This document shows positions 28,089 through 37,606 of a stretch of DNA of 46,169 nucleotides, piece after piece. How positions within the stretch are numbered: position 1 is the first letter of the stretch; each line of letters opens with the position of its first letter. The notes under the pieces were generated by a model. It ran no database searches. It was not told the origin of the DNA and saw only the letters and a program-made list of their open reading frames with translations. Both the position numbers and the translations under genes were made by a program. Source of the DNA: Hyphococcus sp. (GTDB lineage: Bacteria > Pseudomonadota > Alphaproteobacteria > Caulobacterales > Parvularculaceae); NCBI GenBank assembly GCA_021776295.1, contig JAJFGE010000036.1, positions 1 to 46,169 of the forward strand, given 5' to 3'.

Positions 28089-28667
28089 ATGTCTTTCAGT
28101 TCAAAAAATTTTAAAATGGCGCTCGGCATGGCTGCCTGCGCTGCAGCACTTTCAGCATCTACCGGCGCCCTGGCGCAAGCTAATCCGATCGAACATTGCC
28201 GCGAGACATCCAACGGCAAGAAACAGCGCATTGCCTGTTTGGAGGGAATAATTCTCGGCCTTATGGGGCAACCGTCTAAAAGGACGGTGCAAACTGAAAC
28301 CAACGAAAGCAGTCAATATACAAATGCAGATAGTAATACAGCTAACGCAACAGCTGGCCTAGGCGCTGAACAAGTACGGCAGCGGTTACTTAAAAATAAC
28401 AAGGCAGAACGGACAAAAAAACGAAAGAATGATAAAGCAGAACGGATTGCTTCGCGGATTGCGGATTTTGCAAAAACAGACGCCGGTTATTTAATTATAT
28501 TTCTGGAAAATGGTCAAATTTGGCGCCAACGCAAGTCTGATTCCGCCATCTTGCGCCTACGTCAGAATAAACAATACGATGTTGAAATTCGCAAAGGGCC
28601 TGTCAGTGGCTACCGCATGAAGGTTCCGGGTGCATATCAAACTATCGTCGTGGAACGGTTGAAATAA
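28089..28667 (+). CDS. Small exported protein, 'NGQIWR' family (copy 1)
   Basis: I do not recognise a named family. The 192-aa protein has a signal peptide ending at about GALAQA. A short Cys module follows (NPIEHCRETSNGKKQRIACLE), quoted here as HCRETSNGK and RIACLE, then a low-complexity Ser/Asn/Thr and Lys/Arg linker and a C-terminal domain of about 55 residues with FLENGQIWRQRKSD and GYRMKV, ending VVERLK. Two paralogues lie at 32455 and 33102. The gene faces a TonB-dependent receptor gene across a shared terminator, the same layout as at 33102/33926. A periplasmic or surface function linked to those receptors is inference. Confidence 0.75.
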   Translation: MSFSSKNFKMALGMAACAAALSASTGALAQANPIEHCRETSNGKKQRIACLEGIILGLMGQPSKRTVQTETNESSQYTNADSNTANATAGLGAEQVRQRLLKNNKAERTKKRKNDKAERIASRIADFAKTDAGYLIIFLENGQIWRQRKSDSAILRLRQNKQYDVEIRKGPVSGYRMKVPGAYQTIVVERLK

Positions 28668-28773: not shown

Positions 28774-31770
28774 CTAGAAGCGCAGACGAACGCCACCGTA
28801 AAAGGACCGGCCGATAACATCAAAGATTGCCGGGTCAGTATCAGTACCCGTTGCATTTCCAGCTAAGCTGCCGCCAACACCGGTTAGAATAATCGGCGGT
28901 TCGGCATCGGTAATATTGTTAATGCCAAAATACACTTCAGCCATACCGTCATTCAGAGTGACACGCGTCTGCATGTCGTGACGGATGTAATCGCCGACTT
29001 CAAAGTCGAAGATGTTGCCTGCAGGGTCATCGTCAAGAGACCCATTGCTGTTCCACTGAGTGTCCCATGAGAATTGGAACGGCCCGTTAGCGTAAACAAA
29101 GCCACCGAGCACCTCGTGGGTAAATGCGCCAACTTCGCCGCGGTCATCTTCAAACGCGCCGAAGATTTCCGACTCGTACTTACGAAGCCATGTGTAGTTC
29201 CCACGGAACGATAAGGTGCCCGCATCATCAAAGAACGGAATGGCTGAGGCCACGCTGTTCAGCGCATCGCTACCACCTAGGTCGATCGTATGAGCAACTG
29301 CGAAGTCGATACCAGCTGTTTTGAAGAAACCGGAATTGACCTGGCCAGTGTTGACCTCATCGAGTTCACCTTGCGTGGATGCTAGACCTTGATTGTCCCG
29401 CACAAGGAAGCCACAGAACTGATTACCTGCGAAATCACCCGACGAGTAGCACTGGTCCAGTGAGAACTGGCGTCCCGGCTGCCCGATGAATCCCGTGATG
29501 TCGATATTAAAGTAATCAACCGAGAAAACCGTATTGCCTGCCGCCCCGAAGTCGTGGGTGACGACCAAGCCAGCATTGTAAGACTGTCCAATCTCAGGAT
29601 CTAGATTCAGATTGCCGACACCGCTAAACCCGCCTGTACCTTGAATTTCATCCTGAGAAAGGACGAAATCGCCGGTCTGGGCAAAACGAACCTGAACTAG
29701 TGGGTCTTGCAAACAGGTCGTTACGATCGTCGCATCCGTTTGCGCGTTCAGATTGTTACAAGGATCGTTCACTGTGGCAAAGTTCTCGGTGCCGCCATTG
29801 AACAGTTCGCCAATATTTGGCGCCCGCACCGCGCGAGCATATTGGAAGCGAACACGAACATCTTGTACTGGAGACCATTGCGCGTTTCCAGAATAGGCAT
29901 GAGTACTGCCTATCGTCGAGTAATCTGAGTAACGATAGGCGCCGCCCACCGATAGACTTTCAAAGAACTCTTGATCCTTGATTAACGGGATATCAACCTC
30001 GCCAAAGAGCTCGAAAACGTTGAACGCGCCGCGGTTGCCCGAGATCGCATTACCAGAGGTCAAGCCTGCCTGTTGGAGGCCGTCGGGTTGGTTGTCAGAA
30101 AACTCACGACGCCATTCCAGGCCAGCCGCAAAGTTAATCTTACCAGCCGGCAGCTCAACGCCGGGCACTGGACCGGCTATAGACGCGCCAAACGTGGTCT
30201 GTTCGATGCGCGCATTGATAATGCCGACATGGCGTACAAAATCAGCCGCTTCGGGAGAAATTGCACCTTTGCCAAATATATCGATCGGCACACACCCTTT
30301 TGCACGAGCCACTTCATCAACGCACTGCGGCAAGCCAGTGACTATATCAATCTCAGCATCTAGCGCCTGGCGGAAAGCCAGAACGTTTACAGAAGCTTGC
30401 GTTTCCTGACTCCGACTTGTTCGACCGTAGTTAATAAAGGTTTCCCAAGAATAGTCATCGAGCAGCGTGCCCTCAAAACCCGTAACCACGCGGAAGGTTT
30501 GGCGCAGGGCTTCATTGCCCCGACCACCCAACTCGACAGTCCGGCGTTTGAAGCCAATACTGGTGTCGCCTACGGCAGTAGCAAGGTTAAACAAAGCCGT
30601 CGGAACAAACGGGTTGTTAATATCGACACCCTCCGAATCACCTTGTTCAAAAATGTCATCTGACTGGAGCGGTACCGGCTCAAATGCCGTCGATGTAAAC
30701 GAACTCCCATATGAACCCTCGATAAAGGCGTTCACTGAGAAATTGTCGCCATCGTAAATTTCGTAATCTGCAACTCCGTTCAGACCCCAGCGTTCGATTG
30801 GAACGATAATTGTCCGGAAAGGCTGACGGTTGAAACCATCGCCTAGGCCAGGACCATTAAAATTCCCACCATTTGTACTAAATGGCGTGCCGTCTGGATT
30901 GAAGCTTGACGCCGTACCTGCGCCCGCATCTTCAATAATGAAGCGACCCTGTGGAGGAAAGCTGGAGAAGAACGGCTCAACAACAGTCGTACAATCTGCA
31001 GGATTGCCCGTGAAGAGGCAGAAAGAGATATCATCGACTTGCGTATTCGGCCGGCTTGAAGACGCAATCCCCTGGTTGTTGACATATTCAGCTGAAAGAA
31101 CCGCATTGCCGCGGCCATCTCCGAAGTTACCCCCAACCGTTAACCGGAAAGAGTATTCTTCATTATCGCCGAATTCAAATGTTTCGCCGTATTGAGACGT
31201 GAATTGAACACCTTCGAAATCGTCTTTTAGAATAACGTTAACGACGCCAGCGAGAGCGTCAGAACCGTAGACTGATGATGCGCCACCAGTGACAACCTCG
31301 ATACGTTCAATCAGATCAACAGGAATCAAGTTGAAGTCGACAATTTGCGTGCCCGGCAGACCGGCGACAATCCGACGGCCATTTTGCATAACTAGCGTGC
31401 GACTAGAACCAAGGTTTCTTAGCTCCAAAGTGTTAATCCCACCAGACTGTAGTGTGAAATTCGAGTTGCCGGAAGTAATACCGGAAACACCGAAACTCGG
31501 CACTTGACGTAGAATTGAACTGAGGTTGGTTTCCCCAGAAAATGTCAACGCTTCCTGGCCGATCGTCGTAATCGCCGTTGGCGCGTCGAGGTTAGCGTCA
31601 CGCGCAATGCGCGAGCCTGTAACAATAATCGTATCGCGTGACACTGCCGCATCATCAACAGTGTCAGCCACTGTATCAACACCTTGAGCATAGGCCGGCG
31701 CAGTGATTGCGATTAACCCCGTCAAAATTGTCGAGCACAGTAAGCTCTTATTTAAAATAGACTTTCTCAT
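28774..31770 (-). CDS. TonB-dependent outer-membrane receptor 1
   Basis: A 22-stranded outer-membrane receptor that imports a large or scarce substrate using TonB energy. A signal peptide ends at APAYAQ. A TonB-box-like DTIIVTGSRIARD (about residues 47-60) leads into the plug domain, with LRNLGSSRTLVMQNGRRI and GGASSVYGSDALAGVVNVI. The barrel fills the rest to the terminal Phe in GGVRLRF. Length 998 aa. The form resembles large Caulobacter/Sphingomonas receptors; the substrate is unknown. It is preceded by a 33-codon leader ORF and a hairpin that hides its SD (31772-31803), and it is paired with the exported-protein gene at 28089. Receptor 2 is a diverged paralogue in the same arrangement. 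Confidence 0.93.
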   Translation of the reverse strand: MRKSILNKSLLCSTILTGLIAITAPAYAQGVDTVADTVDDAAVSRDTIIVTGSRIARDANLDAPTAITTIGQEALTFSGETNLSSILRQVPSFGVSGITSGNSNFTLQSGGINTLELRNLGSSRTLVMQNGRRIVAGLPGTQIVDFNLIPVDLIERIEVVTGGASSVYGSDALAGVVNVILKDDFEGVQFTSQYGETFEFGDNEEYSFRLTVGGNFGDGRGNAVLSAEYVNNQGIASSSRPNTQVDDISFCLFTGNPADCTTVVEPFFSSFPPQGRFIIEDAGAGTASSFNPDGTPFSTNGGNFNGPGLGDGFNRQPFRTIIVPIERWGLNGVADYEIYDGDNFSVNAFIEGSYGSSFTSTAFEPVPLQSDDIFEQGDSEGVDINNPFVPTALFNLATAVGDTSIGFKRRTVELGGRGNEALRQTFRVVTGFEGTLLDDYSWETFINYGRTSRSQETQASVNVLAFRQALDAEIDIVTGLPQCVDEVARAKGCVPIDIFGKGAISPEAADFVRHVGIINARIEQTTFGASIAGPVPGVELPAGKINFAAGLEWRREFSDNQPDGLQQAGLTSGNAISGNRGAFNVFELFGEVDIPLIKDQEFFESLSVGGAYRYSDYSTIGSTHAYSGNAQWSPVQDVRVRFQYARAVRAPNIGELFNGGTENFATVNDPCNNLNAQTDATIVTTCLQDPLVQVRFAQTGDFVLSQDEIQGTGGFSGVGNLNLDPEIGQSYNAGLVVTHDFGAAGNTVFSVDYFNIDITGFIGQPGRQFSLDQCYSSGDFAGNQFCGFLVRDNQGLASTQGELDEVNTGQVNSGFFKTAGIDFAVAHTIDLGGSDALNSVASAIPFFDDAGTLSFRGNYTWLRKYESEIFGAFEDDRGEVGAFTHEVLGGFVYANGPFQFSWDTQWNSNGSLDDDPAGNIFDFEVGDYIRHDMQTRVTLNDGMAEVYFGINNITDAEPPIILTGVGGSLAGNATGTDTDPAIFDVIGRSFYGGVRLRF

Positions 31771-31849
31771 TTACATCCCTCCGATTATGGGTGGAGGAAT
31801 GCACAATCAGCAAGCGCATACAGCGCCAGTCCATGGCAGACATACTCAT
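31748..31849 (-). CDS. Leader ORF upstream of receptor 1 (33 codons, overlapping)
   Basis: An ATG at 31849 is preceded by CGGAGGG with 5-nt spacing and opens 33 codons ending in TAA at 31748-31750. It overlaps the first 23 bases of receptor 1 in another frame. The peptide begins MSMSAMDWRCMRLL and contains NRRDVNEK near its end. The leader ORF before receptor 2 has the same length and shares M1, S4, M6, D7, R9, R12, L14, S18, S19 and the NRRDxNEK block. The last block is constrained by the receptor SD and start, but the first half is not, which favours real translation. Confidence 0.55.
   Translation of the reverse strand: MSMSAMDWRCMRLLIVHSSTHNRRDVNEKVYFK
31772..31803 (-). promoter_or_regulatory. 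Hairpin sequestering the receptor 1 Shine-Dalgarno
   Basis: On the mRNA, TGCATTCCTCC (31803-31793) pairs with GGAGGGATGTA (31782-31772) across a 10-nt loop. The paired right arm contains the whole SD of receptor 1, six bases before its ATG. The left arm lies inside the leader ORF, so a translating ribosome would open it. Confidence 0.6.
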
Positions 31850-32381
31850 TACGTCCCTCCGGTTCGGCGCGGGGCGCTTGTTCGACAGTCCTGCCTCCCG
31901 GCTTGATGTGCGCGTCACACATCACGGTAAACCGGCATTAGCAGAATATATCGGCGGAACAGCCCCCGCCTGGCGCGAAGCCAGCGGCGATAATTGAGCG
32001 GCGTCAACAAAAGATCGCCAGCGGCGGCTCTTTGAAGGCCGAGCGTGCCAAAATGGCAACAGCAGTCACTGACGCTGGCAACTATTTGGAAATCTTGGTT
32101 AATGGGAGGTTAATGGCGTAAAATGCTGCTGTGGTAGCAGGCGCCGTAGATAATCTAGCCAGACGAATACTCAATCATGCTTGTATCTTATGAAAAGACA
32201 AGCACCCATTCACGCTCCATGGGGAGAGCTGTGGCAGAAATACAGCCTATAGTCGTGAAGGAACCCTCGCGGTAAGCTCAGTCTAAAGCGTCAGGCCAAA
32301 AACGGTCAAACGGTTTCCGGCGCAGGCCTCTGCTTGGGCTATTTTACCGGCGGCCTTGCCTCAATAATCAGCTCGGTCGTA
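31850..32381. other. Divergent intergenic region between receptor 1 and copy 2
   Basis: About 530 bp without a convincing gene beyond the leader-ORF SD at 31855-31861, the receptor promoter-like block at 31979-32007 and, at its right edge, the promoter of the 32455 gene. Short plus-strand frames here (31791-31997) have no SD or family signature. Confidence 0.6.
31979..32007 (-). promoter_or_regulatory. Conserved promoter-like block upstream of receptor 1
   Basis: The minus strand carries TTGACG (32007-32002) and, 17 bases on, CTGGCT at the -10 place. The block TGTTGACGCCGCTC and the GCTTC after it are also found upstream of receptor 2 at nearly the same distance from the leader ORF. The -10 is weak; conservation between paralogues is the main support. 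Confidence 0.35.
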
Positions 32382-32410
32382 TTGACGCTTGAAGCCGCCC
32401 TGTATGTAAT
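32382..32410 (+). promoter_or_regulatory. Predicted sigma-70-type promoter for the copy 2-copy 3 pair
   Basis: TTGACG (32382-32387), a 17-bp spacer and TGTAAT (32405-32410) match vegetative -35/-10 elements. The predicted start is about 38 bp before the ATG at 32455. Confidence 0.5.
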
Positions 32411-32454
32411 CCCCGCCGCACCATCGAACACCCAACCAAGCCTGGAACAAAACT

Positions 32455-33063
32455 ATGAAAACCACCCTTGTCTCAGTTGTCGCCATACTGTCAGTCTTCG
32501 TCGGAGCCGCTGCTTTTGCACAATCATCTGAAGACCAGGCTATCCGTCAGGCAATAGCCTGCCGCGAAATTAATGATGATTTGGAGCGCCTACGGTGCCT
32601 CGACGCTGCGACGGAAAGCCTGTCCGCAATGCGGACTGCTCGTGAAGAGGCCGTCACGGAGCAAAAACAAAACGATCGAGAAAATTTTGGATTGGCCAGC
32701 GTTGGTCAGGCTAAAACAGACGACAGCAAAAACAATGACTCTACAGCCAAGCTCAGCGCCGTCGAAATCGAAGAAGACTTTGGCGCCGAGGCCATTCCGG
32801 ATGTTGTCCTGGAAAAAGAAGAAAAACGTTTGAAAAGTATTACCGCGAAAGTCACCAAAATTGACTTCAATCCATATGGCCAGGTGACGTTGACGCTCGA
32901 GAACGGGCAGATATGGCGCCAAGTCGATTCCGATGGTAAAAAGCTCCGTCTTCGCGGCAAAAATCGCACCTACACCGCCAGCGTCAAACGCGGCGCCGTG
33001 GGCAGTTACAGACTTACAATTAAAGAACTGAAGCGCTCCATCAGCGTACGCCGTATCAGGTAA
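32455..33063 (+). CDS. Small exported protein, 'NGQIWR' family (copy 2)
   Basis: A 202-aa secreted protein of unnamed family. The signal peptide ends at AAAFAQ. The Cys module here is ACREINDDLERLRCLDA, which resembles the 'C..I.DD..RL.C.D' pattern seen in several periplasmic proteins including VasI-like ones. A charged linker follows, with EIEEDFGAE and EKEEKRLKS. The C-terminal domain has TLENGQIWRQVDSDGKKL and VGSYRLTI, ending SVRRIR. It is the most standard of the three paralogues. It is followed 38 bp later by copy 3, so both probably form one transcript from the promoter at 32382. Confidence 0.75.
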   Translation: MKTTLVSVVAILSVFVGAAAFAQSSEDQAIRQAIACREINDDLERLRCLDAATESLSAMRTAREEAVTEQKQNDRENFGLASVGQAKTDDSKNNDSTAKLSAVEIEEDFGAEAIPDVVLEKEEKRLKSITAKVTKIDFNPYGQVTLTLENGQIWRQVDSDGKKLRLRGKNRTYTASVKRGAVGSYRLTIKELKRSISVRRIR

Positions 33064-33101
33064 GAATTAAGACAATTGATTTTCCAACCACAGAGGCGGT
33101 C

Positions 33102-33848
33102 ATGCCAAAATCAAAAAGATATATATCCATCGCCGGAGCCTTTTTCGGGCTTGCCACCAGTGCGGCCGCGAACAGTGTGATCAACCCGGTCGATTATTGC
33201 CGGGAAGCCACGAATGGCAAAAAAGACCACATCGCCTGCGTCGAAGCCGCCCTTACCGGCGTCCGGGCAATTTTGGCGACCTCTGGGACGGCGGCGCAAA
33301 ATACGCTCAATCCAATCGACCATTGCAGGCAAACTGCAGACGGCAAAGAAGAACGCATTGCCTGCATCGAGACAGCCATTGCCGGGTTGTTGGGCGTTGA
33401 CGCGCCAGTTGTAGCGGCGCCGGCAACACAATCAGACGCACTCCCCAGCGCGCAATTGGCTCCTCAAGCAGGTATGCGCGACACTACTGCAGAAGGTGCC
33501 GATGCGGATATTGAAGGCCAGCAGCTTGATGATAAAGCGCCCGTAGGTCTTGGGGCGGAGCAAATCACGCGACGCGTGAAGGCGGAAAAGCACAACAGCG
33601 AAAAACCAGACAAAAGAGACTTGTCGCTAGCCGCGGCGGTCGTGGAGTTCGCGACGACATCCGTTGGCGATACGTTGTTCATTCTCGATAACGGCCAGAT
33701 TTGGCGGAAGAGGCGATCCGAACGCCTGAGAGGCAGGCTTGTCGGCACGCGTGATTATTCGGTTAAAATCTCAAAGAGGGTCTTGGGCGGGTATCGTATG
33801 CGCATTAATGAATTGGGCGAATCGGTTGCCGTAGAGCGTGTGAAATAA
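33102..33848 (+). CDS. Small exported protein, 'NGQIWR' family (copy 3, duplicated Cys module)
   Basis: A 248-aa paralogue with a signal peptide ending near SAAA. The Cys module occurs twice, at residues 28-54 (DYCREATNGKKDHIACVEA) and 70-96 (DHCRQTADGKEERIACIET), an offset of 42 residues or 126 nt. The linker holds GLGAEQITRRV, shared with copy 1 (GLGAEQVRQRL). The C-terminal domain reads FILDNGQIWRKRRSE and GGYRMRINE, ending VAVERVK. Copies 1 and 3 are therefore closest to each other, and each faces a receptor gene across a bidirectional terminator. Function unknown. Confidence 0.75.
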   Translation: MPKSKRYISIAGAFFGLATSAAANSVINPVDYCREATNGKKDHIACVEAALTGVRAILATSGTAAQNTLNPIDHCRQTADGKEERIACIETAIAGLLGVDAPVVAAPATQSDALPSAQLAPQAGMRDTTAEGADADIEGQQLDDKAPVGLGAEQITRRVKAEKHNSEKPDKRDLSLAAAVVEFATTSVGDTLFILDNGQIWRKRRSERLRGRLVGTRDYSVKISKRVLGGYRMRINELGESVAVERVK

Positions 33849-33874
33849 TCCCAAGCAGCGTCATTTACTCAAAA

Positions 33875-33905
33875 AAAGCGGGACCCTGAGGTCCCGCTTT
33901 CAATT
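33875..33905. terminator. Bidirectional terminator between copy 3 and receptor 2
   Basis: A perfect 11-bp stem (33875-33885 with 33890-33900; core GCGGGACC/GGTCCCGC) with a CTGA loop. It is flanked by A-rich sequence on the left and T-rich on the right, so it can serve both convergent genes. Confidence 0.9.
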
Positions 33906-33925
33906 TTCAGTTTTATGTGCGCCGA

Positions 33926-36900
33926 CTAGAAGGAAGCGGTGGCGTTAACAAAAAACGACCGTTGAATTTGGTCATACCCAGACGACACGATGCGGCTGCC
34001 GCGTGTTGCATTGGATGCACCGCTTAACAATGGCGGTTCTTTGTCAAGTAGGTTGCTCACGCCAGCGGTCACACGAACGGTGTCAGTCACATCCTTGGTT
34101 AGGGATAAATCGACATACCAGCGCGATTCCGCCGTACAAACTGACCGGGTCAATTCTGGACCAATCAGGTTAGTGCTTGGCGAGAAGCTCGTGCACGATG
34201 ATTCAGCCGCGAGCGTCGCTGTTGATGCTCCTGTACCATCAAGATAGCGAGCATTCCCCAGCAATTGCCAACCGTTCCAGGTTAATGCCGCAGTTGAGTT
34301 CAATCGCTTCTTGGGAACACCGAAGTCACCCAGCAAGCTATCCGCCGGATCATCTATAAATATCTTTTCAGAACGCTTTGTTTGAATCGTAAGTGCGTTA
34401 CTGAAAAGCAGATCCACGGGCGAGTCGCCAATAACACCAAGTTCTTTTGCAAATCGGACGTTGATATCAACACCCTGCGATTTTTCCTCACCAATATTGA
34501 CGAATGACGCGTCTACGCCACCGACAAAGTCGATGGTCGAAAGAACACCGCGCCGCGGAAACACTCTGTCGCAAAATGGGCTTGTAAGGCCTGGCTCATC
34601 CCCGAAACATCGAGACAGAATTGTTTCTGGCGCGATCGATCGCACCGTATCTTCGATCTTGATGTCGAAGAATGCAACAGAGATATCAATATCAAAACTA
34701 TCGGAGATTGGCGGGCTCAATAATAGAGTAGCCGTATAGGATCTCGACGTTTCTGGATCAAGATCGTCGACCGCTCCTCCGACACGCACCGGAATAGTTG
34801 TTCCAGCTAGCAAGCCGAGAGACGTAGGATCTGCGCCATTTAGAATACAATTGTCGATTACAGTCTGTGATCGAGTATCCAGTGCGGGAACAAAAACCCC
34901 GCCGACGTTTGCGTTGTCAGGCACCGCACATGGATCAGAGTCGGAACCGGTGGAGCTGAATTGATTCCCCAGGAACTGTTCCCGCAGATTCGGAGCCCGG
35001 AACGATGTACCATAGGAACCGCTAATCGTTGTCCAGTCGTTTACACGCCAACTAGCTCGGGCGCGATAAGTTTCCTTGCTGCCAAAATTTGATTCATCCG
35101 TGAACCTGATCGCACCCTCAATATCGACGTTATCTAAAACAGGGATCAGCACTTCGCCATAGAAGTCGTAGATTGTGCGAGCTCCGCGTGTATTTCCTTC
35201 CGTCGCTTGGTTTTCACCCGCATTGAGCGCCTTTGATCCTAGTATTTCAGTTTGCGAATCAATGCGGTCCTTACGCCATTCCCCGCCGAGCGCGACAGCA
35301 ACATTTTTTTCGGACCACGGCCACGCCATAAGATCGCCACTCACGTAACCGGAAACGAGGCCCTGCTCGACAACCGTTCTATTAAGGCGGTCGGCGATCA
35401 GGAATTCAGCCTCTTCGTCTGTCAATCTCCCATCAACACCACCTTCAAAAATACCCGGTGCAAAGAAGTTGACGACCACACAATCACGCGGCTTTTCAAA
35501 GCCAGCGCCAGCCGCCGGGTTCAAGAGCCCGCAAGTCAGTTGGCCACTTGCATCAAAACGAAGGGTCGCTTGGGATAATTCAAGCGCCGACGAGTCCAAT
35601 ACAGCCTGGGAAACAAAGCCCACATTGCGGTCATATGATGCAAAGACATCGTAACCCCAACTGTGTTGCGAGAGCCAATTGTCGCCGCCAAAATCGCCAC
35701 GAATACCCCCAACAAACCTAGACTGGTTGAGCTCGGCGTCAAAAATTTGCGGCAATTGATCGAGCGACACGATTGGCGCAATGAGAAAGAATCCATCAGC
35801 ACTATTGAATGGATTCAATGGATTGTCGAATAATTGCAGGCTTCCATCCGGATTAACCAACAGATTACCGTTTGCATCCTCCATCGGAATATCTATTGCA
35901 ACGCCAGGGAATACTTGCTCCGGCACTTTCTGATCTTCCGTCGTTCGTGTGGAGAACAACCCCTCGAAATATAGCTCTGCGGTTCCGCCAACCAAATCGC
36001 TGACATCATAAGACCCCATTCCCATAAACGAGTACCGCTCCAGGCCAGACACAAGATGGGACGCCTGGATTTCATCTTCCTCAGAGAAAAACGGTATAAA
36101 CGGAAAACGACATCCGAGATCCACTTGCTCGACAACATCGCAGCCGGGTTGTAGCGACCCCGTAAAGTTTTCTCCTAATACCTGGGGCAGCGCTCTTGAA
36201 TCGCTGAAATTCGGTATGCCAATATTAGTAGACCCTGGCGTATAGAACGTTCCGAGAAGATCACCCGTCGCAATCGGAGCCCGAAGTGTCACGATGACAT
36301 TGTCGAACAATCCCTGCTGGCAAAATGATTGTATTTCACCATTTTCCGCTTCCTGAATACTGCGTGAACATGGAATGCGTGAACCAAGGGTTACCGGGTT
36401 TTGTTGAAAATACTCAACCCCGAAAACAAAGTTCGCGCGGTCTGTGCTAGCACCAGCGATAAAACCTACTTGTTTCACTTCGCCGCCGCCTGCTTCGGGA
36501 AATGTAAAGTTGGAGGAGATTTCCAATCCTTCAAAGTCATCGCGAAGCTTTAGGTCAACAACACCAGCAACTGCGTCGGCGCCGTAAACTGACGATGCGC
36601 CTTCAGTTACGATCGTGATGTTATCAATCAACGAAAAGGGAATAAGGTTTAAATCTGCCTGTGGCGGGCCGCCGCGAACACCACCAGGCCCAAGCCGACG
36701 ACCATTGAGCAGCACGAGTGTGCGTTCGGGATCAAGACCGCGTAAACCGATATTCGCTGAGCCAACGCCACCCGGTGGTGGCGGTTCAGTCGCGTTACTT
36801 GCGCCGGCGCTGGTAAATATATCAAGGTTATTTTGTTGACCGTTGGCGACCGTCGATCGCTGTAACAGATCCGAAATTCCCGTTATACCAACCTCTCGCG

Positions 36901-37141
36901 CCGCACTAACGTCTAAGTTTTGCAGCGGCGCCGCACTAGAATAAGAATCCCGCGCAATGCGCGACCCAGTAACAACAATGCGATCACCTTCATTGGCGAC
37001 AACGGAATCATCATCGGCTTGTATGGTTTCAACCGCTTGCGCAAAGGCTGGCCCGGAAAACACTCCCAAACCAGCAACTGCAAACACGCCAGTAAAGACC
37101 GTAGAGCGCAGTAGTGTTTTATCCAGAATTGATTTTCTCAT
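33926..37141 (-). CDS. TonB-dependent outer-membrane receptor 2
   Basis: A large TonB-dependent receptor, 1071 aa. Its first residues (MRKSILDKTLLRSTV) are nearly those of receptor 1. The signal peptide ends at GPAFAQ, and a TonB-box-like DRIVVTGSRIARD precedes the plug domain with LRGLDPERTLVLLNGRRLGPGG (quoted here as GLDPERTLVLLNGRRL) and GASSVYGADAVAGVVDLKL. Barrel strands run to the terminal Phe of NATASF. It lacks a recognisable siderophore or vitamin signature, so the substrate is open. The gene carries the same leader ORF and SD-hiding hairpin as receptor 1, and is paired with copies 2 and 3 of the exported family. Confidence 0.93.
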   Translation of the reverse strand: MRKSILDKTLLRSTVFTGVFAVAGLGVFSGPAFAQAVETIQADDDSVVANEGDRIVVTGSRIARDSYSSAAPLQNLDVSAAREVGITGISDLLQRSTVANGQQNNLDIFTSAGASNATEPPPPGGVGSANIGLRGLDPERTLVLLNGRRLGPGGVRGGPPQADLNLIPFSLIDNITIVTEGASSVYGADAVAGVVDLKLRDDFEGLEISSNFTFPEAGGGEVKQVGFIAGASTDRANFVFGVEYFQQNPVTLGSRIPCSRSIQEAENGEIQSFCQQGLFDNVIVTLRAPIATGDLLGTFYTPGSTNIGIPNFSDSRALPQVLGENFTGSLQPGCDVVEQVDLGCRFPFIPFFSEEDEIQASHLVSGLERYSFMGMGSYDVSDLVGGTAELYFEGLFSTRTTEDQKVPEQVFPGVAIDIPMEDANGNLLVNPDGSLQLFDNPLNPFNSADGFFLIAPIVSLDQLPQIFDAELNQSRFVGGIRGDFGGDNWLSQHSWGYDVFASYDRNVGFVSQAVLDSSALELSQATLRFDASGQLTCGLLNPAAGAGFEKPRDCVVVNFFAPGIFEGGVDGRLTDEEAEFLIADRLNRTVVEQGLVSGYVSGDLMAWPWSEKNVAVALGGEWRKDRIDSQTEILGSKALNAGENQATEGNTRGARTIYDFYGEVLIPVLDNVDIEGAIRFTDESNFGSKETYRARASWRVNDWTTISGSYGTSFRAPNLREQFLGNQFSSTGSDSDPCAVPDNANVGGVFVPALDTRSQTVIDNCILNGADPTSLGLLAGTTIPVRVGGAVDDLDPETSRSYTATLLLSPPISDSFDIDISVAFFDIKIEDTVRSIAPETILSRCFGDEPGLTSPFCDRVFPRRGVLSTIDFVGGVDASFVNIGEEKSQGVDINVRFAKELGVIGDSPVDLLFSNALTIQTKRSEKIFIDDPADSLLGDFGVPKKRLNSTAALTWNGWQLLGNARYLDGTGASTATLAAESSCTSFSPSTNLIGPELTRSVCTAESRWYVDLSLTKDVTDTVRVTAGVSNLLDKEPPLLSGASNATRGSRIVSSGYDQIQRSFFVNATASF

Positions 37142-37220
37142 TGGTATCCCTCCGATTAAGTTTGGAGGAATATTGGTTCAGCGGGCGCAGCAAACGCCTG
37201 TCCATAATGGACTTAATCAT
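37119..37220 (-). CDS. Leader ORF upstream of receptor 2 (33 codons, overlapping)
   Basis: An ATG at 37220 follows CGGAGGG with 6-nt spacing and opens exactly 33 codons, with TAA at 37119-37121, overlapping the first 23 bases of receptor 2 in another frame. The peptide begins MIKSIMDRRLLRPL and contains NRRDTNEK. Length, position of start and stop relative to the receptor, and the MxxSxMDxRxxRxL pattern are the same as in the leader ORF of receptor 1. Confidence 0.55.
   Translation of the reverse strand: MIKSIMDRRLLRPLNQYSSKLNRRDTNEKINSG
37145..37172 (-). promoter_or_regulatory. Hairpin sequestering the receptor 2 Shine-Dalgarno
   Basis: On the mRNA, TATTCCTCC (37172-37164) pairs with GGAGGGATA (37153-37145) across a 10-nt loop; the right arm is the SD of receptor 2. 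The outermost pair is U-A here and C-G in the receptor 1 hairpin, a compensatory change. The left arm could also pair with the identical GGAGGGATA of the leader ORF's own SD (37232-37224). Confidence 0.6.
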
Positions 37221-37233
37221 TAATATCCCTCCG

Positions 37234-37606
37234 GTCCGTACGTGCCGCGCAACCAAAACATCCAACTAACGGCGCTTTTTCACACTGGAGTAAAAGCAAT
37301 GGGAAAAAGTACATGCCGGAAGAGCGACCCACACTTAACCTGAAGCTAATGGCAACCTTCGAGCAGCGTCAACATTGTTAATGCACGCTTCATCGCAGCG
37401 CATTGCACATGTACCATATTAGCAACATGAACCAGCCCTTTGTTTGCAATTGCGAAAGTGTTTTAAATAATTGGTAAATGTTTTGTTGTTTCGCACCGCA
37501 ACAGAGGTATTGATTTAGCTGTATCATCCATCTTTGATATGACTTTTAGCGTGTTTGTTCCTGTTATCGTCAGTTATTGTTCCTTAGAGCTAGTTTGGAC
37601 GGGTTT
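37234..37606. other. Divergent intergenic region between receptor 2 and the hydrolase
   Basis: About 370 bp that become AT-rich from 37380 onward. Besides the receptor promoter-like block I see no gene, terminator or clear promoter for the hydrolase. Confidence 0.6.
37344..37372 (-). promoter_or_regulatory. Conserved promoter-like block upstream of receptor 2
   Basis: TTGACG (37372-37367) and, 17 bases on, TTAGCT (37349-37344) on the minus strand. The block TGTTGACGCTGCTC and the downstream GCTTC match the equivalent block of receptor 1, 147 versus 153 bp from the leader ATG. Confidence 0.35.

Follow-up and report, generated by a model that had tools for sequence, protein, structure and literature searches.

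A candidate two-cistron translation leader with alternative Shine-Dalgarno pairing before TonB-dependent receptor genes of Hyphococcus

What might a short leader frame do when it runs into the gene of a TonB-dependent receptor and carries a complement of that gene's own Shine-Dalgarno sequence (SD)? The window, by which we mean the whole 46,169-nt stretch of Hyphococcus sp. DNA analyzed here, holds two such arrangements, which the initial annotation likened to the attenuators of erm genes. Erm translational attenuators combine a leader ORF with exclusive folds that hide or free the ribosome-binding site (RBS) downstream, and engineered bicistronic design cassettes place a leader cistron before a second cistron so that translation of the two is coupled. 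The leaders described here share predicted exclusive folds with the Erm attenuators and differ in having no conserved stalling peptide; compared with the engineered cassettes they are natural, and they carry an explicit arm able to mask either RBS. We hold it to be an even question whether they are two-cistron translation leaders as a whole, in which receptor translation would be coupled to the leader by RNA unfolding, the arm could mask either RBS, and the leader would descend from an earlier receptor.

Tandem leaders in the window

The elements of both loci are given below, with SD1 standing for the SD of the leader and SD2 for that of the receptor.

37411..37426, minus strand: operator-like inverted repeat (GTTGCTAATATGGTAC) 5' of receptor 2, common to 12 receptor loci, 53-54 nt before TTGAC
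37343..37372, minus strand: promoter-like TTGACG (37372-37367) and TAGCTT (37348-37343) of receptor 2, 18-nt gap, spacing the same in nine loci compared
37227..37232, minus strand: SD1 of leader 2 (GGAGGG), an RBS read from the sequence
37119..37220, minus strand: leader ORF 2, 33 codons and stop, 23-nt overlap with receptor 2
37164..37174, minus strand: anti-SD arm of leader 2, with SD1 (37232-37222, 11 bp) or SD2 (37153-37145, 9 bp) as partner
37148..37153, minus strand: SD2 of receptor 2 (GGAGGG)
33926..37141, minus strand: receptor 2, TonB-dependent receptor of 1071 aa, PF00593 and PF07715 (Plug and barrel domains)
32045..32060, minus strand: operator-like inverted repeat (GTTGCCATTTTGGCAC) 5' of receptor 1
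31978..32007, minus strand: promoter-like TTGACG and TGGCTT of receptor 1, 18-nt gap
31855..31860, minus strand: SD1 of leader 1 (GGAGGG)
31748..31849, minus strand: leader ORF 1, 33 codons and stop, 23-nt overlap with receptor 1
31793..31803, minus strand: anti-SD arm of leader 1, with SD2 (31782-31772, 11 bp) or, with a mismatch, SD1 as partner
31777..31782, minus strand: SD2 of receptor 1 (GGAGGG)
28774..31770, minus strand: receptor 1, TonB-dependent receptor of 998 aa, PF00593 and PF07715 (Plug and barrel domains)

A TCCTCC arm facing the receptor SD across 10 nt had been described for both mRNAs, and it is present at both, with letters and coordinates correct. At receptor 2 the arm 37172-37164 (TATTCCTCC) pairs with 37153-37145 (GGAGGGATA) around the loop 37163-37154, forming 9 bp with an outer U-A pair. 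At receptor 1, 31801-31793 pairs with 31782-31774, the outer pair is C-G, and the stem extends by two further pairs (to 31803/31772) for 11 bp in all; each of the two stems includes one or two G-U pairs. The left arm lies inside the leader ORF in both cases (37220-37119 and 31849-31748), as had been stated. So do the two exclusive folds proposed for receptor 2 exist on paper: with SD1 the arm forms an uninterrupted 11-bp helix containing one G-U (37232-37222 with 37174-37164). The difference in the outer pair was also read correctly, although as evidence of compensatory change a single pair between two paralogues is weak.

The pattern TCCTCCN7ATCGGAGG has two exact matches in the 3.08-Mb genome, both at the window receptors, and the next best places carry two mismatches. 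When the 23 listed Plug-domain receptors of this genome were ranked (with starts picked by script, a few of them doubtful, such as L094 and L107), receptor 1 headed both lists, that for SD opening energy (13.0 kcal/mol, with 7.4 for the runner-up) and that for complementarity to its own SD. Receptor 2 was eighth in opening energy (4.6) and fifth in SD complementarity, and so, taken alone, is not exceptional in its own genome. Only receptors 1 and 2 among the 23 have the tandem leader. A permissive scan of the same genome for short SD-led upstream frames also returned L112 (20 codons) and L101 (13 codons from TTG); L112 (G000:C126) is a receptor whose frame overlaps its start and lies outside this leader family. 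Separately, a long near-perfect palindrome, TCCTCCC...GGGAGGA, is located about 100 nt or less from the start of another receptor (L106, 5' of the receptor at G000:C115:43009), and it may be a dispersed repeat.

Leader loci of the genus and their predicted folds

Receptor 1 upstream DNA was compared with 100 genomes, its own included, and matched in five, all of the same genus (its own, G006, G019, G026 and G011); within its own genome this DNA also matched receptor 2, less strongly. This gives six leader loci, four of them outside the window, which represent only about four independent lineages. Every one of the six has GGAGGG twice, 76-80 nt apart, with a start codon after each (TTG for the leader in G019 and G026), and SD1 is kept 5-6 nt from the leader start throughout. 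In the order receptor 1, receptor 2, G006, G019, G026 and G011, which is used for all series below, the leaders have 33, 33, 30, 26, 26 and 26 codons and overlap the receptor by 23, 23, 14, 4, 4 and 0 nt, so that at all six the leader stops close to the receptor start or beyond it (overlaps 0-23 nt), as coupling would require. A comparable open frame arises in 42-66% of shuffled spacers, depending on the locus, and by itself is thus weak evidence; judged from the sequences, the retained unit of SD1 and start in six of six is the stronger evidence.

Wider searches were carried out with several models. A profile of three leader peptides run against 398 genomes gave 44 places, namely the three known leaders, G011 and 40 weak matches (E 0.003-0.1). 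A pattern of tandem RBSs with ATG starts, which is blind to TTG leaders, occurred at 12 places spread over 11 of 100 genomes (one in the control); four of these are known loci, and the other eight were judged from short sequence only. Across the class, the pattern of an arm between two RBSs was found at 11 places in 7 of 385 genomes (two in the window, nine in six other genomes; three matches in the reversed control). Model R1 returned 20 places in 16 of 62 genomes, of which six were known, three were accepted for a TonB-receptor N-terminus next to them, and 11 were discarded because none was seen in the adjoining stretch viewed. The peptide profile, upstream DNA and model R1 searches found the leader in one genus only. 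In a contig scan, a Halieaceae MAG yielded a single distant relative of receptor 2.

Pairing was scored over 13 positions numbered outward from the loop. With SD2 the arm pairs at 12, 9, 10, 8, 8 and 12 positions, and with SD1 at 10, 11, 10, 11, 10 and 11. By this comparison of bases the two-fold design is common to the six loci and its SD1 side is the better kept, and the combination proposed by the initial annotation (SD sequestration, arm within the leader ORF, two exclusive folds) recurs, as modeled, in six loci of five genomes. The covariance check suggested there had a mixed outcome. Two-sided changes occur in the arm:SD1 helix at positions 9 (C-G, U-A), 11 (U-A, A-U) and 12 (C-G, U-A), and in the arm:SD2 helix at position 9 only, but several pairs are broken. 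In the arm:SD1 helix these are position 8 in receptor 1 and G006, 6 in G019 and G026, 3 in G011, 11 in G026 and 12 in three of the six loci; in the arm:SD2 helix, position 9 is broken in G006, G019 and G026. The outer compensatory pair was accordingly dropped as proof of the SD2 hairpin, being C/A and unpaired in three of the four further homologues, or three of six loci. A leader kept after loss of SD complementarity had been named as evidence against the hairpin, and G011, in which TCCTCC is absent, appears to be such a case; yet a different hairpin would mask the same SD there. Folding predicts UUUACAUUUC/GGGAUGUAAA plus three inner pairs (10+3 bp), which overturned our reading of G011 as a hairpin loss.

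Exchange of arms and SDs between loci revealed no general preference for the own partner. The arm of receptor 1 pairs better with SD1 of G011 or G019 (-18.3) than with its own (-13.9), and the arm of receptor 2 better with SD2 of receptor 1 (-15.3) than with its own (-13.8); only in the pairing of the receptor 2 arm with SD1 was the own partner clearly best (-16.0). When each spacer was shuffled 2000 times with its dinucleotides preserved, summed SD1 and SD2 pairing had p values of 0.0135, 0.008, 0.0265, 0.001, 0.0105 and 0.0265, and the single best site 0.0065, 0.014, 0.0875, 0.0005, 0.0155 and 0.0325, values that are not independent since the six sequences are related.

These results bear on a serious rival, in which the leader is a functionless remnant of receptor exchange that persists because the region is young, and pairing between arm and SD is a by-product. 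The confinement of the leader to one genus in the searches run, the ease with which an open frame arises by chance and the outcome of the swaps all agree with it. It accounts less well for an SD1 and start kept at fixed distance in all six loci, for an arm kept or rebuilt in all six (in G011 through the different hairpin) and for the low shuffle p values, and duplication of an RBS does not in itself yield an RBS complement. On balance we consider a remnant without regulation doubtful. The tandem conserved GGA-rich elements would also suit a trans-acting small RNA or RNA-binding protein acting at the repeated CGGAGGGAU element, with the leader secondary. There is precedent in Caulobacter, where the small RNA RusT represses several TonB-dependent receptors, according to an excerpt of PMC11005374. 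Such a regulator alone would leave the complementarity of the arm to both sites unexplained, and we think it quite improbable.

Partition-function folding was used to predict the accessibility of SD2. In free RNA its probability of being unpaired is 0.00, 0.00, 0.01, 0.47, 0.17 and 0.17, so that SD2 is shut at the first three loci, about half accessible at G019 and largely shut at G026 and G011. With the arm covered by a ribosome the values are 0.80, 0.52, 0.54, 0.60, 0.29 and 0.61, and with a ribosome at the leader start only they are 0.00, 0.00, 0.00, 0.16, 0.17 and 0.17. The predictions are thus in keeping with the proposal that a ribosome moving through the leader melts the hairpin, SD2 openness rising in six of six, and that one stalled earlier does not, openness not being raised when the leader start is occupied. 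Coupling requires that the second RBS be closed by a structure which translation of the first frame would open, and such closure is predicted in five of six loci at 0.17 or below, with G019 at 0.47. Also predicted are mutually exclusive folds that either conceal or expose this RBS, as in erm leaders.

The competing helix depends on context. In RNA that ends just after the arm, 115 nt of upstream sequence gives an arm:SD1 helix of 8.9-11 expected bp in six of six; with 40 nt it is gone in receptor 1 and G006 and about halved in receptor 2 and G011, and with 10 nt it is restored in all but receptor 1. In isolated 134-nt folds SD1 is the partner of the arm at receptor 2, G019 and G026, and in pieces with other ends SD2 is the partner at receptor 2 and G026 has a mixture, so the balance between SD1 and SD2 is delicate. 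Among six leaderless relatives of the family, the SD of L142 is also masked (8.6 kcal/mol).

Leader peptides, promoter and receptor exchange

An erm-type attenuator, in which a nutrient-related stall in the leader decides between arm:SD1 and arm:SD2, would use the same three-segment logic (SD1, arm, SD2). These nutrient receptors adjoin sulphur-assimilation genes, and among the 33 codons of leader 1 are four for Met and one for Cys. Leader 2, however, has two Met and no Cys, and no run of regulatory codons is present in the leaders of the six loci. The peptides differ between loci and the frame over SD2 is shifted in G011; this divergence and frame change rule out the leader peptide as a conserved unit. 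In G019 and G026, CCUCC is kept despite a codon frame unlike that of receptor 1, which places the constraint there on RNA and not on peptide. Near-alike leader-promoter regions stand before unlike receptors, making a receptor-specific signal unlikely; together with the unconserved peptide, this lowers the likelihood of an erm-type stall. Attenuation through a specific peptide or codon run, the likeness drawn by the initial annotation, is thus unsupported, and we rate it improbable.

Substitution counts in the leaders are too small to gauge coding constraint. Receptor 1 and G006 differ by three nonsynonymous and four synonymous changes (pN/pS 0.19), and G019 and G026 by four and three (pN/pS 0.48). 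The latter compares with 0.09 over 771 nt of the G019/G026 receptor, a difference that favors the remnant. None of the six leader peptides contains DUF2946-type CXXC or RAPP motifs or an acidic residue within the first five codons, and no NCBIfam model matched the two window leaders at E up to 1.

Upstream, the operator-like inverted repeat stands 53-54 nt before TTGAC, followed after an 18-nt gap by TAGC(T/G)T or a close variant. Among 398 genomes of the order, eight have this pattern, at 11 places in total, and all eight belong to this genus (reversed control 0); the receptor 1 promoter is one -10 base off the genus pattern, which brings the loci counted to 12. The inverted repeat itself, GTTGCCA-NNNN-GGNAC, is genus-specific and found before TonB receptors (12 loci; the window copies, L133 and L139-L143). 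Proteins with Pfam TonB-receptor domains follow at 10 of the 12 pattern loci; at G011 there is a 95-aa fragment resembling receptors 1 and 2, and at G001:C37 the contig ends after 22 codons, so that locus is assigned by N-terminus only. A metabolite riboswitch acting through SD masking would be in line with SD sequestration and a conserved 5' region. The conserved upstream blocks, however, read as operator and promoter, and no Rfam family matched at gathering score across the window; a riboswitch seems to us extremely improbable.

The leader is present at six of the 12 pattern loci and absent at six (three in G001, two in G013, one in G027), and no SD-led frame reaches the receptor start in these six leaderless relatives. 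Three leaderless loci have a short 5' region with the sole RBS 191-223 nt after the operator; in leader loci SD1 follows at 194-201 nt and SD2 at 273-279 nt, so that the sole RBS lies near SD1, not SD2. G013:C1 and G027 have a single RBS and no leader at the same syntenic site with the same promoter, and such forms again speak for a remnant. In L141, L142 and L143, paralogous receptor loci with this promoter, the receptor RBS follows the operator at about 312 nt, and the three share a CTACCGGAGGGGCCGGCGGCG block without a start codon.

Receptors begin with M(R/K)(N/S)S..M(G/A)RLL(R/C) at five of the six leaderless loci, and the receptor 2 leader begins with MIKSIMDRRLLR. In residue shuffles against 11 receptor N-termini of the group, similarity was significant for the leaders of receptor 2 (p 0.0006) and G011 (p 0.0022), marginal for receptor 1 (0.057) and G006 (0.081), and not significant for G019 (0.22), five leaders having been tested. 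The leader probably goes back to an earlier receptor at this exchange locus, of which the RBS and first codons were kept.

The surroundings of the locus are conserved. One flank in the window comprises cysG, a 208-aa ORF, cysI, DUF934, cysH, an alpha/beta hydrolase and a LysR gene, and the other LysR, an AI-2E transporter and an anthranilate-synthase-like gene. On plasmids, the closest counterparts of the CysI encoded here are alphaproteobacterial, at 64-66% identity, in line with an alphaproteobacterial source. All six leader loci adjoin sulphur-assimilation genes; members of both flank sets occur on both receptor sides in G006, G026, G013 and G027, and in G011 and G019, where the contig covers one side only, flank genes are present on that side. 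Identity between flanking proteins is 46-97%, in most cases above 58%, the exception being a second, paralogous LysR match at 30%. The full-length receptors (receptor 1, receptor 2, G006, G013 and G027) are 25-39% identical to one another, and the G011 fragment is 36-58% identical to them. The G026 and G019 receptors, which have a carboxypeptidase-like domain, are 97% identical to each other over 258 aa and gave no match to any of these. TonB receptors swapped between conserved flanks are thus observed in several species of the genus (window 28774-37141 and L155-L159). Three plus-strand genes of the window (28089-28667, 32455-33063 and 33102-33848) encode products of 192-248 aa that match no Pfam family and are similar to proteins from genes next to the receptors of related loci, a possible receptor companion family. 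Between receptor 1 and G006, 10-12 of 12 bases agree per step from -132 to the receptor ATG and 3-9 of 12 beyond, and in ungapped comparison of receptor 1 with G011 agreement is best from SD2 onward. Recombination at the leader-receptor junction would leave such a pattern.

Coupling by unfolding and related systems

Translational coupling by RNA unfolding fits best with the predicted folds. On nascent RNA the arm could pair first with SD1; after SD2 synthesis its shift into the local SD2 hairpin is predicted at four of the six loci, with a mixture at one and the arm still on SD1 at another. With SD2 masked, the receptor would be poorly translated unless a ribosome coming from SD1 crosses the arm and thereby frees SD2. 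Should SD1 stay empty at first, the arm could close the leader instead. Under this scheme the output of receptor would track initiation at the leader, in other words the supply of ribosomes on nascent RNA, and not a ligand sensed through the peptide. Reinitiation may contribute where the stop touches the start (G019, G026 and G011); for an overlap of 23 nt, as at the window receptors, coupling by reinitiation is weak or none, according to the portion of PMC12548453 consulted.

A related reading, possible but one we lean against, is that of a natural translation insulator at the exchange site. The stub of the old receptor would serve as a standard leader cistron, the pair of near-identical RBSs with their common complementary arm would tie translation of each newcomer to the leader and not to its own 5' sequence, and the choice of RBS by the arm would set output by ribosome supply.

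Coupling by unfolding is itself established, as described in part of PMC12548453, where an upstream frame likewise reaches the downstream start and opens a structure that masks the RBS; here the upstream frame is a leader of 26-33 codons and the arm can also mask the leader RBS. In mgtQ-mgtB of Salmonella a short ORF also precedes a transporter gene and alternative stem-loops mask or free the transporter RBS, but excerpts of PMC8092293 describe four segments and a need for acidic codons that destabilize the ribosome, whereas the present leaders consist of three segments, including two nearly identical RBSs, and lack codons of that kind. The duf1127-1 uORF of Sinorhizobium meliloti, in the passages available from PMC12218461, is likewise alphaproteobacterial and has an RBS that pairs with C-rich codons of the uORF; it works by premature transcription termination, unlike the coupling proposed here. 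CruR-bfrG of Bordetella pertussis is a further uORF controlling a TonB-dependent transporter gene, but extracts of PMC9426467 describe an exported protein with copper-sensing and arrest motifs, a 162-bp gap and Rho termination, with no translational coupling. A tandem-RBS leader before TonB receptors was not found among the literature matches listed, a scope mostly outside subscription journals.

If the proposed coupling is true, these leaders would be a natural counterpart of the two-cistron cassettes of engineers, and a scar of gene exchange would have been turned into an element of translational control. Coupling would further account for the ability of one site to accept widely differing outer-membrane receptors without loss of their expression.
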